Positions 14,137 through 62,515 of a DNA stretch of 64,000 nt are shown here, piece by piece. The notes beneath the pieces were generated by a model. The model was not told where the DNA came from and searched no databases. It worked only from the letters and a program-made list of their open reading frames with translations. The first letter of the stretch is position 1; each line of letters begins with the position of its first letter. Source of the DNA: Lumbricus terrestris (taxonomy: Eukaryota; Annelida; Clitellata; Crassiclitellata; Lumbricidae); assembly GCA_949752735.1 (NCBI GenBank), contig OX457037.1, positions 36,889,596-36,953,595 on the forward strand. The letters are read 5' to 3'. A program made the translations under genes and the position numbers.

Positions 14137-14476
14137 AATGCCCAGCTGTACACTAATTCTACAAATTAATTCAACTGGTGTGAAGATTATGGAACTAACA
14201 CTCGCCTATCTTTGTGTGCTTAGCCAGAGAAAAATGTAGTTGCTGACACTTCGTATACCCATGGATGCCTGTTTCTTAACTTAGCTTAAAAGCTCTTCTC
14301 TTCCCATGTATTTGATGTGATGTTTACATTCCAATGCCCAACAACAACAACGACGTCTCCCCAGAGGAGGGATATTAATAGAAGAGTGCACTAGAAATTG
14401 CTGATCAGGTGACCCTACTGGTGCACCAATTAGGCCTTTAGCTTGCCTGTTACATTATGTTGTTACATTACCCAAT

Positions 14477-14692
14477 GGGGCGCTGTGGTGTAGTGGTGGC
14501 GTCGTTGCCTTGAAGTCGGAAGGTTCGAGGTTCGAATCCACCTCAAGCCGCCTCGTAGGGACCTTGGGCAAGTCCTTCACTCGCAATTGCTCAGCGATTC
14601 GGCGTGAAACTCCGATGCAGTGTCCGCTCTGCAGTCGGGAGCGCCTCTGAGCAGAGAGCTTGAAGGGGCGCTATAACAAGTGCACATACAAG
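14477..14692 (+). repeat. tRNA-derived SINE, near full length
   Basis: Begins GGGGCGCTGTGGTGTAGTGG (A box) and has B box GGTTCGAATCC, body caagtccttcactcgcaatt and gtgaaactccgatgcagtgt, and the ending aggggcgctataacaagtgc. This is the best + strand copy to compare the others with. Confidence 0.88.
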
Positions 14693-16099: not shown

Positions 16100-16880
16100 A
16101 AGGTCCCGCTAGCCAGGTCCACCTGAGAGCATTGAAAGATGAAAGATGTATCCTTGCTCGCGACGATCCTGATTGAGCTTAGAGGATATTAGTCCTCCTC
16201 AGAGGCTGAAAGGTCATGGAGTTTAAGTAACTTTCAGCTGAAGTTTTCAGCAGAACATGACAACCCAGAAGATGTCTCCAGTTGGATTGTTAAATGGCTG
16301 TTTGAAAGTTAAGTCGGAGTCTTCAGACCACGAGAAAGAGAAACGATGTGTTGCGATTTATTCTTCACCTATTTTACGCTTACAATACGTTTTTGTTATC
16401 GGCTGTTAAAAGCATAGTTGTTTATGCCTCTAGGTTTGGAGTTAGGGACTGTTTTTGCACTCATGCTGCGAAGTACAGAGGGTTCACTGTTCTATTCTTC
16501 TCGCTGAACTTTGTGATAAAAATGACAGCTTGTCTGTAGCTCTGTTCCTATTGATGTAGCTAGTGGCTCCGATGGACAATTGAATGCTGGACCAATAAAT
16601 AAATCTCTTTGCATGCAGCAATTGATGACGAAAGCACGGCTGTCTTTTGACAAATCGTCTGCCGGTGTTTTATCTATGGTGTGCTGCAGTAGCCTGAAAT
16701 GAGTTCTTTGGACTTAAATTCTATGGTCGAGTGGAGATGACGGTTGACTTCTTCATGTGCCAAGGCCAAGGGAACAAAGTCATGAACATTGACTCTTTCA
16801 GAGTTGCAAAATAGATATCTTGTATGCATATCGACGACATGTTTCCTTTGCACGCACAGTAAGTGATTTAAATAAGGTGA

Positions 16881-17079
16881 TTCTAAATTCTTATTCTAAA
16901 TTCTTATTCTGAATTCTTATTCTAAATTCTTATTCTGAATTCGTATTATAAATTCTTATTCTAAATTCGTATTCTAAATTCTTATTCGAAATTCTTATTC
17001 GAAATTCTTATTCGAAATTCTTATTCGAAATTCTTATTCTGAATTCTTATTCGAAATTCTTATTCGAAATTCTTATTCT
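16881..17079. repeat. 13-bp minisatellite upstream of IQSEC exon A
   Basis: About 15 copies of ttctaaattctta. Later copies switch to ttcgaaattctta, which creates repeated TTCGAA palindromes. It ends about 135 bp before the exon acceptor. Confidence 0.92.
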
Positions 17080-17214
17080 TTTGCTGCTCAGCCAAACATG
17101 ATGTGCAGCGTCCACTGTCCAGCGCCTCTAATAGACTCTCTCTTGGTGCTTTGCCATTGTGTTCAAATACAGTTACAATTTATTTTATATTTTATTTGTG
17201 ATATGTATTTGCAG

Positions 17215-18816
17215 CAAAGGACAGCATACTCAGAACCTGCTGCCATCAGCGAACGATGTGAACCAGAGGAAAATCTCGGACAACAAGACCGACAACAACG
17301 AGACCGGAAGAAGAAGTCCAGCGGATCAACTGCAAGGTCGTACGTTGACCTCCAACGACAATACACTTTCCATCGATCCAGTCTTGAATTCCTTCTTCGT
17401 CTTATCGGAAGAGGATCAACTCCAACTGCTCGAGGAGAAATACGGTGGCTACGCTCGAGCGAATCGTGCGGCGCTGAAGATCCAGCACATGTTCCGACAG
17501 TTCTCGCTCAACCGTAACTTCGAGAAGCTGCGGCTGGAGGCCGGCGACTCGTCGCGCCGTTCCCGCCGATTCAACCGACTCATCGCCGAGAGTTGTCAGA
17601 AAATACCGACCACCGACAACTTCCTAGCGGCTGTGCAGGAGACCGAGGTGAGCAGTGCTCCCGGGTCTTCTTCACATCAGGCGAACAAAGACGGCAGGGA
17701 ACAGTTTCACAGGGAAGACCACGCAAACGGAAATCATGCATTTCCGAACGATCGGAAAAACCGACTCTTCCACCTGGATAAACCGCCGCCGCGGATGCTT
17801 ATCGATCGGAGGCGAGTCGGTTCGGCTAAGACGCACTCGGAGGATCGGGAGCCGCAGCAGCGTCTGCATGATGGAAGCGAGGGTAATTCGCCGTCGGTCA
17901 GCCCGACGCCGATGATCGTCGATCTGCCGAGTTTCAACTTCGAAAGTCTTCTCGAGAGTCGGCAGAGGATTGCCGCCGTTGCCGCCGGCGACTGTTTCCA
18001 TGACGACGTGATGCTGGAGCGTGGCTGGTCGTCGTCTTCATCATCGTCGAAGGTCTCGACACCCGTCGAGCCGATGCCCCACTTGACGTACGTCGACGAA
18101 GACTGCGTCAAGACCCCAGATGATTTAATCGGCGACTGCACGCTCATCTTCAAGGGCAAAACCGCGAACAACTGCGATCCGGGTTTTTCCCGGGAATCGC
18201 CCTGCAACGCGATCACGACTGCCGTTTCGTGTGGTGACTACGATAACGTCTTTGTGTCCATCCCTCCGAACCTTACCGGGAATCCGTCCGATATCGACGG
18301 AAACTGTCCGAGGGGTGCGGCGCAGAGGTACGTTAGACCCCCCTTCGTGCAGAGTCTGGGTAAGTCGTCGTACACGGGTAACATGTACACGAGACGAGGT
18401 CCGAAGGAGCATTCGCACACCTGCCGTCATCATCTCCCGAATCAACTCTCAGACGCTCGTCCCTATCTAATTCATCTCGATTCCGATCCCAACGAACCGT
18501 CGCCTGTATGGAAGCGCAAGAGCTCACACGAGTCGAACTCTGCCTTGGTTTGCGGTCACATGAGGCAGTCATCGGAGCCAATCGAAGAGGAGCGTCAGGA
18601 CATTGCGTGCAACACGTCTGGTGGTGAGCACGTTTATAGTTCTTCGAGCTCGGACGTTGCGAGCCTAGGCAGCAACAACGACATTAAGATGCCGACGAAT
18701 TGCAGCGTTGAGGTTTCGTCGAGCGATTGCGAGATGTACGTGCTGCGAAACCGCAGTCACCTTAGCGACAAGCAGAAGAAACGATTGTATCGTATTGGTC
18801 TCAATCTCTTTAACAG
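17215..18816 (+). CDS. IQSEC: IQSEC exon A (IQ motif, linker, start of Sec7)
   Basis: A large 1,602-nt exon, residues 1-534 of the visible protein. The acceptor is tatttgcag just before 17215 and the donor is aacag|gtacgt at 18816/18817; it ends in phase 2. It carries the [14 protein letters not shown] block, the IQ motif and [11 protein letters not shown], which match the vertebrate BRAG N-terminal layout. A low-complexity linker of about 400 residues (Ser runs, acidic and Arg-rich patches) follows, and the exon ends at [18 protein letters not shown], where Sec7 begins. GC content and codon bias rise sharply against the flanks, including many CG dinucleotides. The upstream ATG at 17159 lies in the polypyrimidine tract and is not taken as a start. 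Confidence 0.93.
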
Positions 18817-21800
18817 GTACGTTTTGTTGCTGATCAGCCGATGCTGATTCATAATTCCTGAACATGTCTTTTAGCCTTCATTTCTGTTTTGTTTTCATTG
18901 TTTGACTTTGCTTACTGGATTTTTTATCCAAAATTATGTAATGGAGCTTGGCATACACAACTCCTAGTTCCACGGGTTCGCTTGGCTACCAGACAACGCC
19001 AAGCTTTCCCGGTTGTAGGGCCGTCCATCTGGAATGACCTCCCTTCAAAGCTGCTTTTATTACATCTGACCAATCAAACCTTGTTTTATAAACCTCTCGT
19101 CTTTTTCTTTCGCCGTGGCTGGGTTGGGAGCGCCTTTGAGTGGATTTCTTGAAGGGTGCTGTATAAATCCATAGAATGAATTAACGAATGTAGCATAATT
19201 AGGAAGCTATTGAAAACTTGTACTCTTCAACAAAGCAAGTGCTGTTAGCTAGTGTCTTTACTTTCAAAGAATCTCACACATGCATCTAAAATCGTGCAAC
19301 AAGTCCTTGAGCGCTCACTCAGTTGAAACTAAATACCAGTTTTAACAAATTAATTGAGCTAAAATCTTGCAGTCTAATCAAAAGGGTCAGTGAGAGAGAG
19401 AGAGAGAAATTGGCTAACTCTGAACACTACAATGGAAGCCTGTCTAACATGTTGCTTATAATATGATTCGATCGTACAAATTCTGATATCCGATAATGCT
19501 CTTTCTACAAAGGCTAAAGTTGTTTTATTCTGCAACGTCAGTTAGTGTCTTAAGATACATTCCAAGGGCGTTGCTTGACAGTCTTCATATATATATTTGC
19601 ACAGTAATAAGAATTCAAATGAACTTGCATAGTAGAATTAATATGTCCTCACTCAATATCAATCCTGCTTTATCTTTGGGTAGTGAAATTTAGTAATTAA
19701 AATCAGCTCAAATATATGGAAGTCCACTCAGAGCCCTGCGTATACCCGAATGTCCATCAGTCTGTCCATGGATAAATATGGGTATGAAAACCTTGAGATA
19801 TTTTTGCACGTTATTATCCACCATTGACCTGTCGTCCATTTTTAATCCATATCTACCCTTATGAATCCAAGATTTGTGGAGTGAATTGCTGAGATGTTTT
19901 TGGTTTCTATAAGTCAATAAAAATATTGGAATACCTGGTCTTCCCATATCTATTTTATATATTGTTTGCTTATTTTACTTCATTCCTGTATAAGAACTAA
20001 AAGTATCTATTCCTCTGCACTCTTAGGTCAGAAGTAAGCACTGCTTATAGATACAGCTATGCTCCTACATGTATATCAGACATAAATGCACTTATATTCA
20101 AGCGCATTCCTCCTATATGAGAACTAAAACACAGGGCTGGCTATTTACTCAAGAACACTCATTTCGCAGTTTGTCTTAAACATTCATGTGCGGTAATATA
20201 CTGCACTGCAAATCAACAGCATAAAAACCACTTCAAGTCCTCTGTAGGTCAGAACTGAATGACACGGGAAGGCTTTAAATTATTTCTGTATTGTTATATT
20301 ATTACAGGCTGTCTGTTATGTCAGTAGGCCTTGTTAAGATTTATGTATTCTTTGATCTGAGTTCTTGTAAATTGTTTCAACTGCATAATTGTACAATGTA
20401 ACCGGTTGCGGTCTATCAACCGGATTGTTGAATAAAGGAAAATTATTATTATTATCACGAAAGAACATGGATAGGAGAAGGCATGTCGTGACTCAGTTGG
20501 TAGATGTGGTTTCGCTGGAATATATCTTCCAGTACGTAATCAATCGCTTCTGATTTATTTTCACATGGTCTTCATAACAGGCAACTAGATATCTTTGTTT
20601 TGATGTTTAGCATGAAGTATGGTCTTCCTTAGAGGGTTGTTTCCTCCTTGACCATGTCCTCCTTGATTGATGGCTTATTGGCATTCGTTTATTGTAGCAT
20701 CTATTACCAGTAGACAGAGTATGTCCAGTTGTTAAGTTGCTGGTATCTTTCCTCTGCTTCCACTGAATGATTCACCTACGAAAACAGCACTCCTATAATG
20801 ACTCTTATTGATAGGGGACTTTAATGATAGCTGTGTGATACTCAGGGTTTAAAGTGGGTGGGAACGGCGTTCCCACTGGTCTCGAAATTCTTGGCTTGCG
20901 TTCCCACTGCTCATCATGAAGTAACTTTGAAGCACATGCATTTCAATAAAATTCTTCATCAGCGTTCCCACTGCTCATATTTAGCGTTCCCACTGCTCAT
21001 ATTTAGCGTTCCCGCTGCTCACTCGAACCACTTTAACCACTGGTGATACTTTAGCGGGGTGGTGTAGTGGTTGGTTCGGTGCCTTGGAGCCACTGCCAGA
21101 GGGTTCCAAGTTCGAATCCGTCTCAAACCTCCGCGTAGGGACCTTGAGCAAGTCCTTCACTCGCAATTGCTCGTGCACTTCGTGAAACGCCAAATGCGTG
21201 AAATAAATGAATAAGATTTTCCTTCCTACTCGTGGCTGTTCTCTGTTGTTCGTACTGGCTGGTTAGTATTACTTCAGCGATGGATCCGATGTGTGTTTGT
21301 TTTGCGTTGTAGGAAACCAGAGAAGGGAATTCAATTCCTCATGGACAATCACTTCCTCGACAACAAACCGAGAGATGTTGCTCGATTTCTGCTCACACGT
21401 AAAGGCCTCAGCAAGCAAATGATCGGCGAATATCTGGGCAACCTACTCCGACAGTTCAACATGGATGTTCTCGAGTAAGCCGCTGTTTCATTATCATACA
21501 TGTCGTGTGCACGTGCCTTCTTGTATTGTATTGTATTGTATATAAGCATTTATAAAGCACCTCTTACAGACTAGCTATTCAGAGGCGCTCTCAGCGTGAC
21601 AGCCCCGAGGAAATAAGAAAGACTTCAAGTAGCGAAGAGCTGAAGATGATACCCCCAATAAGATCTTACTACGGATAGTGGGAGCCAGGTCATTCCACAT
21701 AGAAGGGCCTACAATGGCAAAGGCACGTATTTTTTGTATACGTATGCATACACGCACAAATGCATTTGTGCATCTAAAGTTTGCCTGTACTTCTTTAGTC

Positions 21801-24949: not shown

Positions 24950-27900
24950 TCATCAACTTTTTTGGCGGATAAGTTGGTATCTTTTTCCCGGAAAATTTGG
25001 TCGATGACTAAAAATTTTTTCTATTGTCTCACAATACCAAAAATTTTGGCCCCCCTTCGAAAATTCCTGTATCCGCCCTTGGTGGTGGTGGTGGTGGTAG
25101 TGGGGGTGAGGGTGAGGGTGAGGGTAGTGATGATGGTAATTTTAGGTTACAAACTTACAATCTACATGGAAAGTTCTAGTCATGAATGGATATATATAGC
25201 AGTGGAACATTAGCTGCACATCCAAAACTGAGATTCAATCCTTATTAGTGCATGGTCTTACAAATGATCTCTTCTGTTCATTATGAGTTGTGATTTGACC
25301 AGTGTTTAATCTTCATATCAGTTGTTAAATTCTTTAGCTTGAAGTTAGTGAGAAATTATAAGACATACATTATCTTAATCATTTGTACCGAATGTTATGA
25401 TAGCCTCTCATATATGCACAGTGGACAGCAAATACGCCCATTCAGCAACTTGCATGCATCCAATATACCTTCAACATCATCTGGATTCATATTAGACTTG
25501 GAAAATATCTGGAAACACACATGGATGGGTGTGGCTCAATTGCCTTAGTTAGATGCAGAACTGTCTGGCTCTTGTAAGATTTGCCTCTAGAACACTAGAC
25601 ATGACTTCCAGTTGCCATAACCCATAGATTTTTTACATCTCTGAGCTATTACTCGGCTATATAAGAGTTCATCTGCCAGTATTGATTGATGGGCTCTTTT
25701 CGCTGAAAGCATTTGCATCGTGGAGGGCCAGGCCAAATTTAGGTGGGACATCCTCTTGTCTAGATTTCCTGCTTTTATGATATTTTCATGTGATGCTCAT
25801 GAATACGAAAACAGCTGCAAGCTTTAGATTTTGTGCGAGTTTTCCCAATCATATATACGACACCTTTGAAGTTTGGTGGATGAAGTGCTTTCAGTTTAGT
25901 CCTGTAGTATTTATCTAGGACTGAACGATGAACCAGAGCTTTTATACTTGCTGTATTATTATTAGTAGTGGTAGCTGTTACTGTAGTAGGAATAGTAGTA
26001 GTAGTAGTAGCAATAGTAGTAGTAGTAGCAGCAGCGGCATTGTTGTTATTGTAATTTTTATTATTAAATGGACATTTGTTGCATGCATTTATGATTAAAA
26101 TATAGTCTTAAAGGGAGGCACTCTATATAATTATATATTATATATATATATATAAAATTATATGGAGTATGTATATATATTCACTCTATATAATTATGCA
26201 TTTTATATCTATATAAAATTATGCATTTTATATATATATAATTATATGGAATATGTATATATATATTGGCAACCAGACATGTAAGGGTAAAGGTATATAT
26301 ATAATGCCGACAAGACAAATATATAATATAATATGTTATATATATATAATAGTTTGAATGCTTAAATTCCTGTAAATATTTGAGCGGAGATGCAGAAATA
26401 GCCAAAGCAAACTAGTTCTAGCTACCAAGTGAGTTATATGAGCTTCGAAACTGCAACGAAGGTCAATGATCTTGCAGCCTGTTATATATAACTCACATTT
26501 TTACCTTTTTCTTTTCAGGCGTTCGCTTCCAGCTACATTAGTTGTAACCCAGATGTTGGTCGAAAGTTTGTCCATCCCGACACCGTCTTCCTCATCGCTT
26601 ATTCGATCGTTATGCTTAACACCGACCTGCACAACAACAACATTAAACCAGACAGGAAAATGAAGCTGCAAGATTTTCTTCGCAATCTCAGAGGTAGACT
26701 GTAACTACGTGTTTTTTGATCTTCTCCTGTGTTTGAATGTTTGATTCTCTGTGATTGAATTTTAAGGTACATTTCGATTGACTGACTTACGATAGAAGCT
26801 GCAGGTGTAAAGTAATTATAATCAATCAATTGGATTTATATAACGCACCTTCAATAAAGCTGCTCAGAGGCGCTCCCAGTTGAGATCAAGTGATAAAGGC
26901 ATTCTTCAGCAGTTTGTGGTACTTAAATTCTTGTAAATCGTTGAGTCGAGACCCTAATAACCACAGGATAGATTTTTTAGGCTTTGTTGGCGTTTGTATG
27001 TCAAGTTTTCACAATTGACAAACAACACAGTGGGGTACTGTGGTGTAGTGGGTATGTTCATCACCTTGCAGCCGAAGAGTTACAGGTTCCAATCCACCTC
27101 AAGCCACCTTGTAGGGACCTTGAGCAAGTCCTTCACTCTCAATTGCTCAGCATTTCAGCGTGAAACTCCGATTCCGTGTCCTGTTGTAGTCGGAGTGCTT
27201 CTGAGCAGGTATCTTGAAGGGGCGCTATAACAAGTGCACATACACATATATGCTTATATAATGATCTCTGTTTGCATTTAAGCTTTTGTGGATCTGCGGA
27301 TTGATCGGAAATCAATCCACACTAAAATAATCAGTTTAGTAATATTTTGGTTGTATCTTAGGTATCGATGGTGGTGAGGATGTCGATACAGATATGCTGA
27401 CCGGTATCTTCGATCGGATTGCGACATATCCGCTGAAGCCGGCCAACGATCACGTCATGCAAGTCATGAAGGTGGAGAAGATGATCCTTGGCAAGAAACC
27501 GGTACAGTTCATGTTTTGCAGTCCTCTGACTTTTATTTATTTTTATTTATTTGTCCATTTCTATAGCGCCTCTTCAAACTCTCTTCTCAGAGGCGCTCCC
27601 GACTACAGAGCGGACACTGCATCGGAGTTTCACGCCGAACCGCCCAAGCAATTGCGAGTGAAGGACTTGCCCAAGGTCCCTATGCGGCGACTTGAGGTGG
27701 ATTCGAACCTCGAACCTTCCGGCTTCAAGGCAACGACGCCACCACTACACTACTGCGCCTCACAGTGTGCACTAGACATTTGCAACATACTTCATTATGA
27801 AACATATTCTGTTGTTACTTGGTCAGCAAATTACATATGTCTATTATGTCGCATGTATGTAAGATGAAATGTGTGTGGCAGGACATCAGTTTTAATGTGT

Positions 27901-33900: not shown

Positions 33901-36900
33901 TATCGCAACTGTCCTCCGGACTTTCACCGCAGAAGTAAGGACTCCGGCATCGTTGACCTTGATCCAGGTCGTCTTACTGCCGCCGGCATTGTTGAGAACC
34001 GGTTGTCTGCCCCAGACTGTGCCGCACTGAACAAGAGTTCACTTAGTTCATCGCTGGGAGATATGATCGATGGTAGGTGTAATGAAGATTTTTTTTTATA
34101 AAATATGGTAATTTATGGATATATATATATGTTAATTTATGGATATATGAATTTATGGATACATATGTTAATTTATGGATACATATGTTAATTTATGGAT
34201 ATATATGTTAATTTATGGATATATATGTTAATTTATGGATATATATGTTAATTTATGTATATATGTTAATTTATGGATATATATGTTAATTTATGGATAT
34301 ATATATGTTAATTTATGGATATATATAAACTTCTGATGAGTTTTTCTACGCTGAAAGCCAGATTCACTTCTTAGTCTTAAATTTAAATTTTCTTAGGCCG
34401 CTTTCTGTTAACATATACTAAAATGTCTTATTTGAAATGGGTTTTATTGAAGAGTTCTGATTGACTAAACTGCTTGTGAATGCTGGAAGTTATTTTGCTT
34501 CTACGCACATTTACGCGTGTTGGTTTGTATGGTATCTGAAACTTGGCTATCTTACTGTAAGGCTCGGGAGGATGTTGTTAACAGATTTATGTGTTGGAAT
34601 TTAAGAAATATATCGAGCCCTTTGAAATTCAAGTGATGACTGCTATTTTCACTTTGGTCTTGTAATCCACAGCACTGTTGCTGAATTTGCAGGAAATTTG
34701 TTGACCATGAATATCCATCCATGTGAGGGCATTTAGACTGCTGACGATGATATGTATTTTGTTGGTATTCACTGTATTGTATATTCCTAGGATTTGTTTT
34801 TGGCTGAACAGCTGATAGAGTGAATTATGGCTGTCAACCTTCATTACTTTGCTTTTTTATGTGTTCTTCTTCAATATTGTATTTTATACGACCATTTATA
34901 AAGTTCTTCTCTCAGCAAAAGCCTTTCAGAAATGCTCCCAGTGTGATCGACCCCGAGAGAGGAAAGACAGGATTAAGGGCAACAGAGAAATGTGGAAAGA
35001 CTACCATAGAGAAAGCACAGCGAACAGATGGATGAAGTCCAGTCCATAGATCCAGGGCTTAAAGTGTGGCTGGACGGTCATGGACGGTGTCCATGCACAT
35101 ATTTTAAATTCTGAACGCTGTCCAGTCACTTATTGGCCAGCAATGACTAGAAAGGTAAGGGGCGTCCAGGCACTTCTTTTGGAAAGATAAGGGGCGTCCA
35201 GGCACTTATTTTCACACTTTAAACACTGCATAGATCTATAGCGAGTCTTTTTTATGGACCTATGCAGACAAAGCATCTGGATTGAACCACGGCAGTCCTG
35301 ATGCGGGGAGCAAGGAGATCAAGCCGATCAGAGGATCTACGAGGATGCAGCGAACTGGCAGAGAGAGAGAGGGACGAAGCATGAGATCATAAACATTCTT
35401 TGGAGCAAGACCCAATAGATATGCGATGAAGTGCTTGTCATGGTTTTATTCTATCAAAGAGGCACTATACAGATTTGTGCTGATGCAAACCAGTCTAAGA
35501 GCTGAGTAACATTTCACTTGACAGAAAATGCTATTTTTTTATTTTTCCATTTTCGTAATGCATCTTCAAGATATCTACTCGGAAGTGCTCCCGACTACAG
35601 CAAGAACACTGCATCGGAGTTTCACTTCGAAGCGCTGAGCAATTACGAGTAAAGGGCTTGCCCAATTTCCCTGCGTGACTGCTTGAAGTGGATTCGAACC
35701 TGTAACCTTCCGGCTGCAAGGCAATGAACATACCCAATACACCACTGTGCCCCACAATCTTTGCCTAGTCTGTTTATAATGAATGTTTGTGAGTTTCGTT
35801 TTGAGTGGCAGAGTAATCTTTTCACGATTGTTGTTTCTAGGTAGACATCGTCTCAGTTCGGGATCTCTCGACAGCGGATTGGTAAATGTAAATTCTCATT
35901 CAATCTTTTTTTATTCAAGAATCCTTCTGAATTAGATGAGAAATCATTTTGTGTATACATCCTGTATTGTGTGCGTCAGTTTATTTGAAGTGTTTGAGTA
36001 ATTATTTGAAACATCCTAAATTAAGCAGAATTAAATTGAGCTGTATAAGTTTCTGCTTTATATAAATGTTGATGATACTTAACAGTACTTGATATCTTTT
36101 AGTTTAAGTTAATTTAGGCAGTTTGCTTGTTGTTCCATAATTTGGCATACTGTGAACTGTGCTTCAATTTTGGATGAATATGAATTACTTCAGATTTCGA
36201 GTTGCTTTACAAGATTTCTGTGACCCATATGTTTAGTGTCTGACATATAAGGTCCTATATGTGTCTGGTCTGACCTATATGTGTCTGGTCTGACCTATAT
36301 GCTTCTGGTCTGACCTATATGTTTCTGGTCTGACCTATATGTTTCTGTTCTGACCTATATGCTTCTGGTCTGACCTATATGTTTCTGGTCTGGACGAATA
36401 TCATTTATTTTGCTGGACTTGGCAATGTTTCTGTTCTGACCTATATGTGTCTGGTCTGACCTATATGTGTCTGGTCTGACCTATATGCTTCTGGTCTGAC
36501 CTATATGTTTCTGGTCTGACCTATATGTTTCTGGTCTGACCTATATGTTTCTGGTCTGACCTATATGCTTCTGGTCTGACCTATATGCTTCTGGTCTGAC
36601 CTATATGTTTCTAGTTGCTACACGAGACATCATCACTGCCAATTTCTAAACCTGTTTCTTCTTTGTGGAATAGTCTTTTGAGAGGCACACGAGTATATAA
36701 ATTCAGTTATTTAGCACCATAGATCAATGAATTGAATTTCGTTGAATTTCGCCTACGAGTGCTGTGGGCCTATATATGTAACATAGAATGCACCTTGAAA
36801 CTATAATATGCGACGTAGCATTAATTACCAATAATGTAACAGTACCGCGTAATTATACATTGGCATATCACGACATGCAGCATGAAATAACCCTGCATGT

Positions 36901-48656: not shown

Positions 48657-49518
48657 GTGATTCATGGCGAGCATGGTGGCGCCAAATTACAGGCCTATGT
48701 AAGCCTGTACTGCCGAGTACGCGACTCGCCTTCTGGCCTGGCTACTTGCATGACTGCCCTGGCTATGCCCAAGCTATAAAAAGTGTCTGGCGCCGCCACT
48801 GTCTGCAGACAGTGTCAGACACTATTGTTACGTCATTAGTTCTGTTCATAAGCAATTTAAGCATGCTGCTGATATAGCCTAGCTTTGTATCATTGTATTT
48901 AATTAATTTTGAGGACATATAACTTATCCTTGCTGCATCAATCTATAATAAAACGGACAAAGGACTCGCGGGCTGTAGGCTGCCATCTCTGCTGTACAGC
49001 GTCCAGAATAAAATTGCGTCATTTTATAATGCGTCACCCCGCACTTGAGTTCCGGTCAGCGGAGGCATGCATACAGAAGTTGTTTAAATAAGCATGATAA
49101 ATAGGTTTCGCTGTAGAGTTTCTGGTTGATTTTTGGGACGAATCTGCCTGATAGCCTAATGGTAACCCCAACATATGGGCTAGTAATCTACGTGTGCGAA
49201 AGTGGCCTATTGCACACTAAAATGCGCGGCTCTCACTTCACGATTAGGCTATAAGTTTAACAAATGACTGGCCTCTAGCCTATGCCTACCAACCGGACCT
49301 TAATTAGGCATAGGCCTACTATCAACTATCAAAAATGTGTTTCTTTTGCCTGTGTGGGGCTCATAAAGTGTAAAGGGCCCTTTAGACCGAACATGTTGAA
49401 CATGCGCTAATCCGACTCAGTAGCATATGCAGAGCGTTACTTTTTCACAAAAAGAAACAAGCCACTTCGTGCAACTAGACTTGTCATATAGTTTACAATA
49501 TAGTGAGAAACAATACAA

Positions 49519-49765
49519 TGGGCGCGGTGGTAAAGTGGGTATAGGTTCGTTGCCTTTGCAGCCGAAGGGTTGCAGGTTTGAATCCACCTCAAGCCGCCTC
49601 GTAGAAACCTTGAACAAGTCCTTCACCTGCAATTGCTTGGATACTTTGGTGTGAAACTCCGATGCAGCGTCAGCGCTGTAGACGGGAGCGCCTCTGAGTA
49701 TATAGTGAGCTTGAAGAGTCGCTATAGTATAGAAATGGAGAAATAAATAAATAAATCTAAATAAG
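49519..49765 (+). repeat. tRNA-derived SINE, near full length
   Basis: Head gggcgcggtggtaaagtggg, B box GGTTTGAATCC, end gaagagtcgctatagtatag, then an AAATAAATA tail. Confidence 0.85.
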
Positions 49766-51126
49766 CAGAATAATAATAAATAAAACTCATTAGGCCTAGC
49801 CTAATTCTTTAATTCTTTTCAGTTGTAGAACTTGTTGTCGGCGACGCGTCGGTTTATTTTCTGATCGAGTGGTCAAGTTATTAATTAAGGAACAAACTAT
49901 TTTCTGAAACGTACGTGTCTAAGACTTGGGGAACAACAGTAGACCTATACAGTGCTCCTCACTTTTAAAGGTTTGAGACTTGTTCCACGGGTTCGAAAGC
50001 TCTGCGAGTATGTTTTACAATCAAGGAACTATAATGCTCGACTTTATGAAGATGAATTTAATATCGTTTTGCTCAATCTGAGTAATTCCAATTCGTTATT
50101 TGAATATTATATTTGTAGGCTAACTGCAGCGACAATCATAACAAATCTTTGGCATCCGGCGACCAGTATAGCTAAGGCCTATCGAATCATTCAAGCTACA
50201 TCCATCCGCAGACCTAGGTTATTGGCTTATTGTCTGATTCAAGCCTACAGAACAAAATAGATATCGTCCTTTTGAATCCAATGCAATGTAAATCTTCGAG
50301 AATTTCTCAGCGTCCGCAAAAGTCACGTGAGAGAGAGAGAGAGGACATTTTATTCACCGACGATGCGACGCATCGAATGTTTTATTTGGGAAAGTAGCAC
50401 TAGCTGGCCTAAACCTGCATGATCATTTCAATCGCAGTTCCCTTTTGTTACACACAATATTGTACCCAAAGATGTGCCTTTCCAAAGTCGTCTTATAGCG
50501 CTCGTTTATTTTCCGAGTATAATTTCCACCGTTCCCGTGATATTACTAAAGTTAATTGCCCGTCGCTTTGAACGGAAATCGCGTTCACACCCGTCTCGTT
50601 AAGACCCGGCTCCTAGCCTATCGATGCGCGCTTAACGTCCGTGTTTTATCGAAAGGCACTTCCTTAACCGCGCCGTGATATGGCGCGGTGCAAAACGGTT
50701 ACCCCTCCTAAGAATATCCTCTCATTGTGGTCTGCTGCTGTTAATGCAATCGCCAGCGTGAAAAATGCGTCGAATAAACAACGAAGCCGAATTATTCTGT
50801 AGCGCAATTTCGAGCATAAGCACGCGACTTAATGAGTGCGCTTGACTTTGAAACGCGCCGACAATTATAATTATTAGGCTGCGTATTGGACAGCGGTAGG
50901 CTCGTCATATCCGCGAGATTGAGCTCATGTGAAGGAAGACCCAGTGATTAATATCGAAGGCTGTAGTTGTTGTTTCCATCGATGTAATAATTATTATTAT
51001 CTAAGGTTTCTCCTCGAACATTCTGTTCGCGTTTGCCTTGAATAAACAGCTCCTGGCAATTTACACGCGTCGCATAGAAATTAAAGAAAATTAACTCCAT
51101 CGTTTCAGCTTTCGGATGTTGCCAGT
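49766..51126. other. Gene-free stretch
   Basis: A perfect 8-bp stem (accgcgcc/ggcgcggt) with 7-bp loop occurs at about 50668-50690, and a short GA run at 50329-50343. Sequence near 50291 resembles that near 62962. No coding exon recognised. Confidence 0.4.
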
Positions 51127-53395
51127 AGGCTACCGTAGTACCGTACGCGAATTCGTAGAACATACATGGATACGAGTCGAAGGCTTTGATTACCCAATAG
51201 GGAAGCGAGTTATAAATGGCGTGACCTGATATGTAACTTTCGTACGTGAGTAAGTAAATATTCTTATTAAATGCAATTGCTTTAGAAATATTATTATTTT
51301 TCAGTGTCTCAAATTTTGATTAAATGGATACGAACGAAGCGCGTTTAGAAATTTTAGTAATTAGTCCTAATGATTATTCAAGTAACGTGAAATAAAAATA
51401 CGCGCTGCGAAGAAGGTTCATTGTAGGCCTAATCGATGGCCAGACGAAGTGCATTAGCGTGCGCGGCATAGGATCAGAGGTTGCCCCTAAGATAGTCAAA
51501 GTCGTACATTTGCCAGAGAAGTTGCATTGATGAAAATAACTCGTGATAAATCGAAAACAGGTTGCTGATGGCCTCGCTGCAAAAGTAGACCGAGGAAAAG
51601 AGCGTCTCCTGAATGAAGTTGCATTGATGAAATTAATGCTTTTTAAAAATTGAAGATGGACACACGAAACAATCGCGTTGCTAAATAGAAGCTGGATTGA
51701 TGAAAATATTCTTGCTTAAATTTGAGCCTGGCTGGTGAGAATGTTTCTTTGTATGTCCTATATTGGAATTTAATTGATGAAAATAACTGTCGGTTGAACA
51801 GAGGCTGAAATTATGAAAATATCGCTTGATAAATGGAGGCTGGATTAAGATATTTTATGACTGGAATGCAAGCTGGCATGATGAAACAAACACTTGAGAA
51901 ATGGAATCTGGATGAAGATTCCTTATAGGTGAAATAGAATCTGGATTAACGAAAGTAACGCTTAAGAAATGGAAGTAGGACTAATGATAATTAAAACGCT
52001 TGTGAAACGAAACTGGATTAGGGCATTTTTATATCTTAAATGGAAGCTGGATCAAGGTAATTTTATATATGAAATAGGAGCTAGAGTAATGATAAACGCT
52101 TAAGTAATTGAAGCTGGAATCAGATATTTTTACGCCTTCAATGGAAGCTGGATGAAGGTATATTTATATCTGAAATAGAAGATGGATCGATAAAATATGC
52201 TTGATTGATAGTCGCTTGATAAAAGAAAGCTGGATATACGGCTTTGCAGCTTAAATAGAAGCTGGATGCATGTTGAAATACATGAATGAAAATCAACAGT
52301 CCAGTTTCCATTTATCAAGCGTTATATACGTCAATCCAGCTTCTATTTCACCTATAAGGAATCTTCATCCAGCTTCATTTTCCAAGCGTTTTTTTTATTA
52401 ATCCAGCTTCCACTTCATATATAAAATATCTTAAACCAGCTTCCATTTTAGATATAAAAATACCTTAATCCAGCTTCCATTTCAGATATAAAAATACTTT
52501 AATCCAGCTTCCATTTTAGATATAAAAATACCATAATCCAGCTTCCATATTAGATATAAAAATTCCTTAAACCAACTTCCACTTCAGATATAAAAATACC
52601 TTAATCCAGCTTCCACTTCAGATATAAAAATACTTTAATCCAGCTTCCAGCTTCCATTACACAAGCGTTTTTCATTAATCCAGCTTCCATTTATCAAGCG
52701 GTGATTTTCAAAAATCCAGCCTCTGTTCAACCAACAGTTATTTTCATTAATTCAGTTCCAATATACGCAGAAACATTTTCACCAATCAGGCTCCAATTTA
52801 AGCAAGAATATTTTCATTAATCCAGTTCCAATTCAAGGACGGGCATTTTCATCAATCGAGCTTCTATTTCAAGTAAAAATACAAACTTTTCCTGTTTCCA
52901 TTTCTCAAGCGTTATTTTCATCAATCCATCTCCAATTTAATCAGGAAGATTTTCGTCCATCCAGCTCCAAGTTAAGCAAGAACATTTTCATCCGTCAAGC
53001 TCCAAGGTAAGCAAGAACAGTTTCATTCGTCCAGCTTCAATTTACCGATTAAACGCTCTTTTCCTCGGTCTTTTTTGCAGCGAGGCCATCACCAACCTGT
53101 TTTCGATTTAGAATTAATTACTAAAATTCTAAACGCGCTCCGTTCTTATCCATTTCATCAAAATTTGCGCTACTGAAATATAATAATATTAGGCTACTAA
53201 ACCAGGTATTTCTGTGAATACTACCTTGTGAAATATGATTATATTTATCAGAATTATCAGAATATACTTACTTACTCGCGTACGAAAGTTACAAATCAGG
53301 CCAAGCTATTTATAACTCGCTTTCCTATTGGGTCGTCGGAGCCTTGGACTCGTATCCATGTATGTTCTACGAATTCGCGTACCGTACGCCTAACT
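51127..53395. mobile_element. Foldback-type element, two arms of about 1.1 kb
   Basis: The outer part gaattcgtagaacatacatg (51149 on) recurs inverted at 53347-53375. The match continues through ggatacgagtc, gcgagttataaat, gtaactttcgtacg, aaattttgatgaaatgg and gatggcctcgctgcaaaa. Inward, both arms become tandem units of about 34 bp, gaagctggattaaggtattt plus ttatatctgaaatg, meeting near 52300 with almost no loop. Long inverted arms with internal tandem repeats are the hallmark of foldback elements. Arms differ by indels (about 165 bp extra on the left, about 60 bp on the right). Confidence 0.85.
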
Positions 53396-55398: not shown

Positions 55399-55664
55399 GT
55401 TTGTCGAGTTTTCTAGGTGAAAACAAAAACAACATAGGCTTATTTATTGTCACTTAAGATAGCTGATTAGCCCACAGCAATCATGTTCAACAGAATAATA
55501 ATAATAGGCTTATAGAATTGACAGAAATAAATTTTTATTCGAAGTCATAACAGATGGAACATTTTTAGCGCTAACTATTAGGGCTAAATAATTAATAAAT
55601 TGCTGTTCTCTCTACACTAAATTCCGGGACAACTTGGGATCAATCAGCTAAACGGGATGCGAAT
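55399..55664. other. No feature recognised
   Basis: AT-rich flank leading into the 26-bp minisatellite. Confidence 0.4.
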
Positions 55665-56122
55665 TAAGCATTTCTTAGAGTTTGGATGATTAACAATTTC
55701 TTAGAGTTTGGATGATTAACAATTTCTTAGAGTTTGGATTATTAAAATTTTCTTAGAGAATTTAGTTTAATTGCTTAGAGTTTGGATGAATAAAAATTTC
55801 TTACAGTTTGGATGATTACAAATTTCTTAGAGTTCGGATGATTACAAATTTCTTAGAGTTTGGATGATTAAAAATTTCTTAGAGCTTGGATGATTAAAAA
55901 TTTCTTAGAGTTTGGATGATTAAAAATTTCTTAGAGTTTGGATGATTACAAATTTCTTAGAGTTTTACAGTTTGGATGATTACAAATTTCTTAGAGTTCG
56001 GATGATTGCAAATTTCTTAGAGTTTGGATGATTAAAAATTTCTTAGAGTTTGGATGATTAAAAATTTCTTAGAGTTTGGATGATTAAAAATTTCTTAGAG
56101 TTTGGATGATTAACAATTTCTT
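55665..56122. repeat. 26-bp minisatellite
   Basis: About 17 copies of ttcttagagtttggatgatt plus aaaaat, fairly uniform, with a few truncated units. Confidence 0.95.
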
Positions 56123-61882: not shown

Positions 61883-62284
61883 CGCCAGAGTTGTCGATGA
61901 CGGATGGAACTCTGGAATTATATAATATTTTCAGAAGGGACCGAGCCACTAGTAGGGCACCGACAATCAAAATAGCCTATTATCTAACCTGCAACCCGGA
62001 GAGGGAAAATATTATATAGGTCTGCACGAGCCGATAATGATTCTGCTTGACGTTAGAAATTATCGAAACACTATAAGCGAGCGGATGGGAGAAGACCATC
62101 ATTATAGAGAAATCTGTCAGTAAGGGAGACAAAATGATATAATCATATAGATGGAAAATGTACGGATAAGGATACATGAGCGAACCATCAGTGATCGTAA
62201 TCTCGAAATGATCACAGCGTTCCAAAATCGAAGGGGTTATGCCTCTATAGCAGGCCTAATAGTTCTCTTGTCAACTATAATTAT

Positions 62285-62515
62285 GTGGGGCGCGGTGGTG
62301 TAGTAGGTACCGGTACGTTCGTTGCCTTGCAACCGGAGAGTTCCAGGTTCGAATCCACCTCAAGCCGCCACGGTAGGGATCTTGAGCAAATCCTCCACTC
62401 GCAATTGCTCAGCGCTTCGACGTGAAACTTCAATGCAGTGTCCGCTCTGCAGTCGGGAGCGATCATGAGTAGACATTTTGAAGGGGCGCTATAACAAGTG
62501 CACATACATACACAT
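62285..62515 (+). repeat. tRNA-derived SINE, near full length
   Basis: Head ggggcgcggtggtgtagtag, B box GGTTCGAATCC, body gcaattgctcagcgcttcga and the ending aggggcgctataacaagtgc. Confidence 0.88.

Follow-up and report, generated by a model that had tools for sequence, protein, structure and literature searches.

Foldback transposons have been described in several superfamilies, and the TU elements of sea urchin, with an 8-bp target duplication and an outer domain of short tandem repeats, and Galileo, with a target duplication of 7 bp, are two of them. Other systems have been connected with Mutator-like elements (MULEs). Tm1 of root-knot nematodes, a Mutator/Foldback family, has composite arms with tandem motifs of about 14 bp and 9-bp duplications; according to the accessible part of its description (PMC3169594) it consists of a rare element with a MULE transposase, Phantom-like and with FLYWCH, and of many non-coding derivatives, includes one copy with an identical end motif at both termini, and was judged inactive. 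Muta1 of Aedes aegypti is a MULE with subterminal tandem repeats in its terminal repeats, 8/9-bp duplications and hundreds of non-autonomous derivatives, a target preference not being apparent in the available part of the report (PMC5225508). FB4/FB-NOF of Drosophila (9–10 bp duplications; PMC8277862) and Tetris (8–10 bp; PMC4079207) are internally repetitive foldbacks assigned to MULE/Mutator; in the portions of these papers at hand the transposase is given as not known for the first and not found for the second, and both foldback origin and mobilising enzyme stand as unresolved. Rehavkus, finally, combines 9-bp duplications, a minisatellite towards one end and a PHD finger (accessible text of PMC6446971); none of the terms Echinodermata, Hemichordata or sea urchin appears in the main text of that article.

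The element described here lies in a window of 64 kb, by which we mean the whole stretch of Lumbricus terrestris DNA that was analysed. The first-pass annotation had read the interval 51127–53395 as two halves that are inverted copies of each other, and this stands: inverted repeats run across the interval, with outer arms of 124 nt at 90% (the target duplication counted in) and several inner arms besides, and the element strand forms a fold over its full length of −932 kcal/mol in which base 1 pairs with base 2232, as compared with −475 to −504 kcal/mol in four mononucleotide shuffles of the element. The true ends are at 51147 and 53378, as set by comparing 38 copies that have both ends and 9-bp duplications, and the element has the end sequences GCGAATTCGT...ACGAATTCGC (Table 1). 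A target duplication, which had seemed impossible to fix, is present as a perfect GTACCGTAC at both flanks. Tandem units of about 34 bp are found in both arms, as had been noticed: the unit core GAAGCTGGATT has 31 matches in the element (at most two mismatches, both strands) vs. 0.6 in shuffles, 13 of them forward in the left half and 18 reverse in the right half. The spacer, said to be almost absent, measures 29 bp from the last forward to the first reverse unit. The outer part of the left arm, approximately 370 bp, is free of unit matches, the array being internal, and long inverted arms with internal tandem repeats make up most of the element, which is the architecture of a foldback. No stop-to-stop frame with a length of 120 aa or more lies inside the element; among those in the window, one (50948–51319, minus strand) overlaps its left end and extends outside. 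Scans of the 64-kb window for RNA families (gathering threshold) and tRNAs yielded no hit.

Table 1. Coordinates of the foldback element, its parts and an interspersed repeat (positions of the 64-kb window).
Feature	Position	Strand	Remarks
Left target site duplication	51138–51146	.	GTACCGTAC
Whole non-autonomous foldback element	51147–53378	+	2232 bp; 38 two-ended copies compared
Left terminal inverted repeat core	51147–51267	+	121 bp, 88.6% to right core; A-type (base 29 = A), distal-end type
Left subterminal non-tandem part	51268–51517	+	
Left array	51518–52268	+	Diverged tandem units of ~34 bp, core GAAGCTGGATT, 13 units at ≤2 mismatches
Centre between arms	52269–52297	.	From last forward to first reverse unit
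Right array	52298–53038	-	Tandem units, core AATCCAGCTTC on + strand, 18 units at ≤2 mismatches
Right subterminal non-tandem part	53039–53255	-	
Right terminal inverted repeat core	53256–53378	-	A-type, distal-end type
Right target site duplication	53379–53387	.	GTACCGTAC
Interspersed repeat, ~200 bp	14476–14690, 27025–27244, 27562–27762, 35564–35754, 49516–49726, 62284–62508		

Elsewhere in the window, an interspersed repeat of about 200 bp occurs at least six times in both orientations, the copies being about 73–93% alike (Table 1). Minisatellites of 26, 20, 25 and 13 bp, unrelated to the units, are located at 55663–56122, 36254–36612, 2054–2396 and 16880–17079, respectively. A large exon at 17135–18847, which from its IQ-like motif we take to resemble IQSEC (IQ motif and SEC7 domain protein), has a weak database match to IQSEC3 (E 3.9e-5).

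The host assembly (1,056 Mb, 331 contigs) was searched, and 40 of 7640 first-look candidates were scored. The matches were grouped by the author into 40 places including that of the window; these are the copies nearest to the window's, a non-random sample, and the other 39 were examined with about 1–1.5 kb of flank each; the loci L001–L008, given by the search itself, duplicate some of these and were set aside. Both ends are present in 38 of these 40 best-matching copies (L017 and L036 each lack one end), and 33 of the 38 show a perfect 9-bp duplication; it is imperfect in L009 (one mismatch) and L022 (two), and none is recognisable in L010, L030 and L046. In an enlarged set of 58 two-ended copies, comprising the 38 foldbacks, four intermediates, two 8-kb elements and 14 further listed pairs, 49 have a perfect duplication. 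The exact terminal 23-mer occurs 140 times in the assembly (100 of these places were listed), and its reversed control not once. The copies are spread over many contigs, their flanks are mostly unrelated and their perfect duplications distinct. The first-pass annotation had proposed that other copies with the same ends and a duplication of constant length would confirm a mobile family, and such copies exist; by these sequence comparisons, 51147–53378 is a non-autonomous foldback member of a mobile DNA-transposon family.

On C16 (42863225–42871344), two copies, L012 and L011, share one target duplication and lie within an inverted duplication, the arms of which measure at least 3.7 kb, are 99.65% alike and enclose a spacer of about 0.7 kb. 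This is either a foldback-type rearrangement, as expected from such elements, or an assembly duplicate.

The differences between the arms had been taken to indicate that the element has been in place for some time, a view that the copies do not sustain. The window copy differs from its sibling L009, on another contig, by 8 substitutions over 2227 aligned positions and is for this reason young. Its left and right arms are 76% alike in the terminal 330 bp; in the same region of all 38 copies, left and right arms within one element have a mean identity of 0.770, and comparison between copies gives 0.967 for left arms and 0.966 for right arms. Since like arms agree across copies and unlike arms differ, the arm difference was inherited from a founder and is older than the insertion in the window. 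Left-right identity lies between 0.741 and 0.815 in 37 of the 38 copies; the exception, L042 (C8:15546664–15551475; 0.982), has two left-type ends with arms 93% alike over approximately 1270 bp, and may have become symmetrical only recently. The occurrence of near-identical siblings at different sites and the paralogous empty site of L045 described below are sequence signs suggestive of movement.

In a conservative set of 30 target sites (the 33 perfect ones minus one segmental duplicate and minus two members of a trio that occupies one shared site), CSG occupies positions 4–6 in 28, vs. 1.2% in the window background, and the motif reads N-T-M-C-S-G-K-A-N (NTMCSGKAN), palindromic about base 5. 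As such elements in Drosophila generally have palindromic target motifs, according to the accessible part of PMC3276498, it is the strength of the motif and its G+C-rich core that are notable, not the symmetry. The shared site consists of the same nine bases of a reverse-transcriptase sequence, identified as LINE-like by inspection of a translation, and is occupied in L015, L023 and L024, one of them oppositely oriented. These look like separate insertions because their nearest relatives differ; for the like-oriented pair, copying of the filled site followed by conversion is an alternative. When 38 joined flanks were compared with 56 sequences, those of L045 matched two unfilled copies of one repeat at 92–93% with a 4-bp gap at the site, which is, on this alignment, an imperfect paralogous empty site; the only other junction-spanning matches were two weak ones of L038 (82–83%).

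Two elements of 8078 and 8085 bp, L052 (C6) and L053 (C8), share terminal repeats with the foldback family. They are flanked by perfect duplications (GAGAGCTCT and TGGTTGGCC, respectively) and are 99.3% identical; over 8069 positions they have 32 differences. The left end of the window's element is identical to that of L052 over the first 28 bp, and about 100 bp are common at 86–88%. L052 contains an open frame of 549 aa that matches the MULE family PF10551 with 32.8 bits (cut-off 27.6) and SWIM with 18.4 bits, under the cut-off of 19.6; in L053 the same exon is divided over two frames. Neither of the two upstream frames of L052 matches a Pfam family, FLYWCH is not matched in the L052 frames, and no PHD family was found at E≤1 in the three frames, a set from which further exons may have been missed. 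The IS1249 and IS256 models score far under their cut-offs against the transposase, yet are consistent with the MULE class. When the query is aligned with those 62 of its 87 homologues whose length is at least 450 aa, D48, D115 and E231 are found in at least 97%, and C136 and H139 together with the SWIM-like C333, C335, C344 and H346 in at least 95%. Named homologues come, among others, from aphids, spiders, a tunicate, fish and Lytechinus. For relatives of transposase exon 2, viral contigs gave 87 pattern stretches of which none was confirmed, and plasmids no match; each search of solved structures returned one insignificant match.

Four intermediates of 5.7–6.8 kb (L048–L051) contain decayed gene pieces and many repeat units towards the distal end. 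Perfect duplications flank three of them, L051 having none, and Pfam recognised no transposase family in eight frames taken from the intermediates. Another gene-bearing sequence, L095, has an open catalytic frame of 556 aa and no clear ends, and was left unscored for end type. Two gene-remnant elements of 5.67 kb (C2:43248372–43254042 and C2:43267061–43272735) lie 13 kb apart with unlike target duplications, GGCCCGGAG and GAGGTGGCA, and possibly reflect local transposition.

The length of the duplication and the MULE-domain exon of the partner element argue for a placement among the MULEs. Indeed, the 9-bp duplications (49 of 58 copies) fall within the 8–11-bp class, terminal inverted repeats are present, and a MULE (DDE) transposase, whose action on the window's subtype is putative, is encoded by a member with shared ends (L052). 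We consider it highly probable (about 0.9) that the element belongs to a Mutator-like family as a non-autonomous foldback (FB-like) member, one that would have been moved by a transposase in trans, directed to NTMCSGKAN sites and born by inverted duplication. The transposase supplied in trans would bind the terminal repeats, and the element would be cut and pasted into NTMCSGKAN sites with duplication of 9 bp.

At base 29 of the terminal repeat nearly every copy has either A or G, and the target varies with this base. In 47 of the 49 copies with perfect duplications (L012 was dropped as a duplicate, and so was a copy whose two ends differ and whose target has CSG), CSG targets are found for 37 of 38 A-type vs. 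2 of 9 G-type copies (Fisher 4.4e-6); this table is partly post hoc, as the link was noticed when most of the data were already in it; it includes four pairs added afterwards, each of which combines A-type ends with a CSG target. The link is broken by one A-type copy, L038 (GTGCAGGAT), and by two G-type copies in CSG sites, L048 and L050. Twelve one-ended sites, scored by eye and kept separate, have CSG in 4/4 A-type, 2/7 G-type and 0/1 C-type cases. The 8-kb G-type elements are in non-CSG targets, as is the G-type foldback L028 (18+19 units). The open exon of L052 belongs to the G-type subtype, and by eye the transposase exons near an exact end are all in G-type elements, among the 100 of 140 places listed. 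An intact gene-bearing element with A-type ends was not found in these searches. L094, located 57 kb past the right edge of the window, is a gene-bearing element of 7041 bp with A-type ends and the CSG target TACCGGTAC, and from this combination the A-type lineage would once have had its own transposase; its catalytic exon has lost the first ~158 residues and its terminal repeat differs at several bases. The transposase that moved the A-type subfamily of the window probably came from that lineage itself, and need not have been the one of the 8-kb G-type elements.

At slightly less than even odds, we tentatively propose two sister MULE subfamilies with near-identical ends, a diagnostic base, differing targets (NTMCSGKAN vs. 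loose) and two transposases, the foldback being born from one gene-distal minisatellite end. Near-identical ends combined with sharply different targets would, in this proposal, imply two transposases, each recognising its own ends and targets. It is rather unlikely that the foldback subfamily is instead moved by the G-type transposase of L052/L053, with a target difference that arises, for example, from the arms or the chromatin: the identical first 28 bp, the ~100 bp shared at 86–88% and the similar sibling divergence (8/2227 and 32/8069) fit such an arrangement, but the target follows base 29 and not the architecture, L028 being a foldback in a non-CSG site and L094 a gene-bearing element in a CSG site (one example each way). 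The link between base 29 and target offers a natural comparison for mapping the target choice of a MULE transposase.

The two ends of L052 are unlike just inside the shared terminal repeat, and about 37 bp beyond this repeat serve to diagnose a distal and a proximal type. All 38 foldback copies have the distal type at both ends (scores 27–33 vs. 10–15), whereas the seven gene-bearing elements with readable ends (L048–L053 and L094) all have the distal type at one end and the proximal type at the other. For L048 the proximal type has a weak score (12 vs. 8), though the 552 bp on the right of this element can be aligned with the proximal end of L052. On these grounds the foldback has the appearance of a single end duplicated in inverted orientation. 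The repeat units have 34, 29, 34 and 48 matches in L048–L051, and 6, 6 and 4 in L052, L053 and L094, with about 2 in shuffles of L052 and L053. As the simplest course, we infer that the distal arm of a gene-bearing relative would have gained the minisatellite, i.e., the ~34-bp repeat array, that this transposase-distal arm would then have been duplicated in inverted orientation, replacing gene and proximal end, and that the gene-free, double-distal derivative would have multiplied. Candidate intermediates coexist in the genome: some elements bear the gene and have no array, others keep remnants of the gene and have the array towards one end, and others again are free of the gene and have the arm on both sides. 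Moreover, wild individuals can be typed for the young copies, the flanks of which are known.

Foldback architecture arose more than once, according to the available parts of PMC3169594 and PMC3573991, and the element might on that account belong to another superfamily (e.g., the Galileo type of the P superfamily), the MULE elements being chance carriers of similar ends. With ends common to the MULE-exon elements over about 100 bp, this is very improbable. The 9-bp duplications, moreover, do not agree with the 7 bp of Galileo. Hardly any more probable is membership in the TU class of sea urchin, which the first-pass annotation had brought forward: the foldback form as a whole, with long arms that contain tandem units, is alike, but duplications are 9 bp and not 8 bp, and the repeats are internal with non-tandem DNA outside, the reverse of the order in TU. 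A palindromic satellite, or an amplification or assembly artefact without transposition, to which the prominent tandem units and the C16 copy pair inside an inverted duplication (at least 3.7 kb at 99.65%) could be referred, is barely credible, being contradicted by the many contigs, mostly unrelated flanks and distinct perfect 9-bp duplications, and by the reversed control pattern with 0 matches.

The MULE foldback is placed in none of TU, Rehavkus and Phantom. In a literature search, with Repbase outside the comparison, no description was recognised as this foldback family; that it is undescribed, as had been suggested, is unproved. As far as the accessible text on Rehavkus goes, the likeness concerns the 9-bp duplications and the one-sided minisatellite, as in L048–L051, and the difference the PHD finger, which has no match in the three L052 frames. 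Judged by anatomy, the family appears to work like the FB-type MULEs Tm1, Muta1, FB4 and Tetris, to the extent covered by the parts of their descriptions at hand. It resembles Tm1 in its FB-like arms with tandem motifs, its 9-bp duplications and a rare MULE element accompanied by non-coding derivatives; Tm1 has FLYWCH, which is unmatched here, where SWIM is found below threshold, and its motif is ~14 bp and the family judged inactive, whereas the units here are ~34 bp and siblings are near-identical. Muta1 is alike as a MULE with tandem repeats, a similar duplication length and non-autonomous derivatives; it differs in having no apparent target preference, in contrast to the CSG-centred targets of 37 of 38 A-type copies, and in carrying the repeats itself, whereas the 8-kb elements are without the array. 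With FB4 and Tetris, compared by description and not by sequence, the family shares the foldback form, the repetitive arms and similar duplications, and it differs from both in that gene-bearing relatives with near-identical ends exist here.
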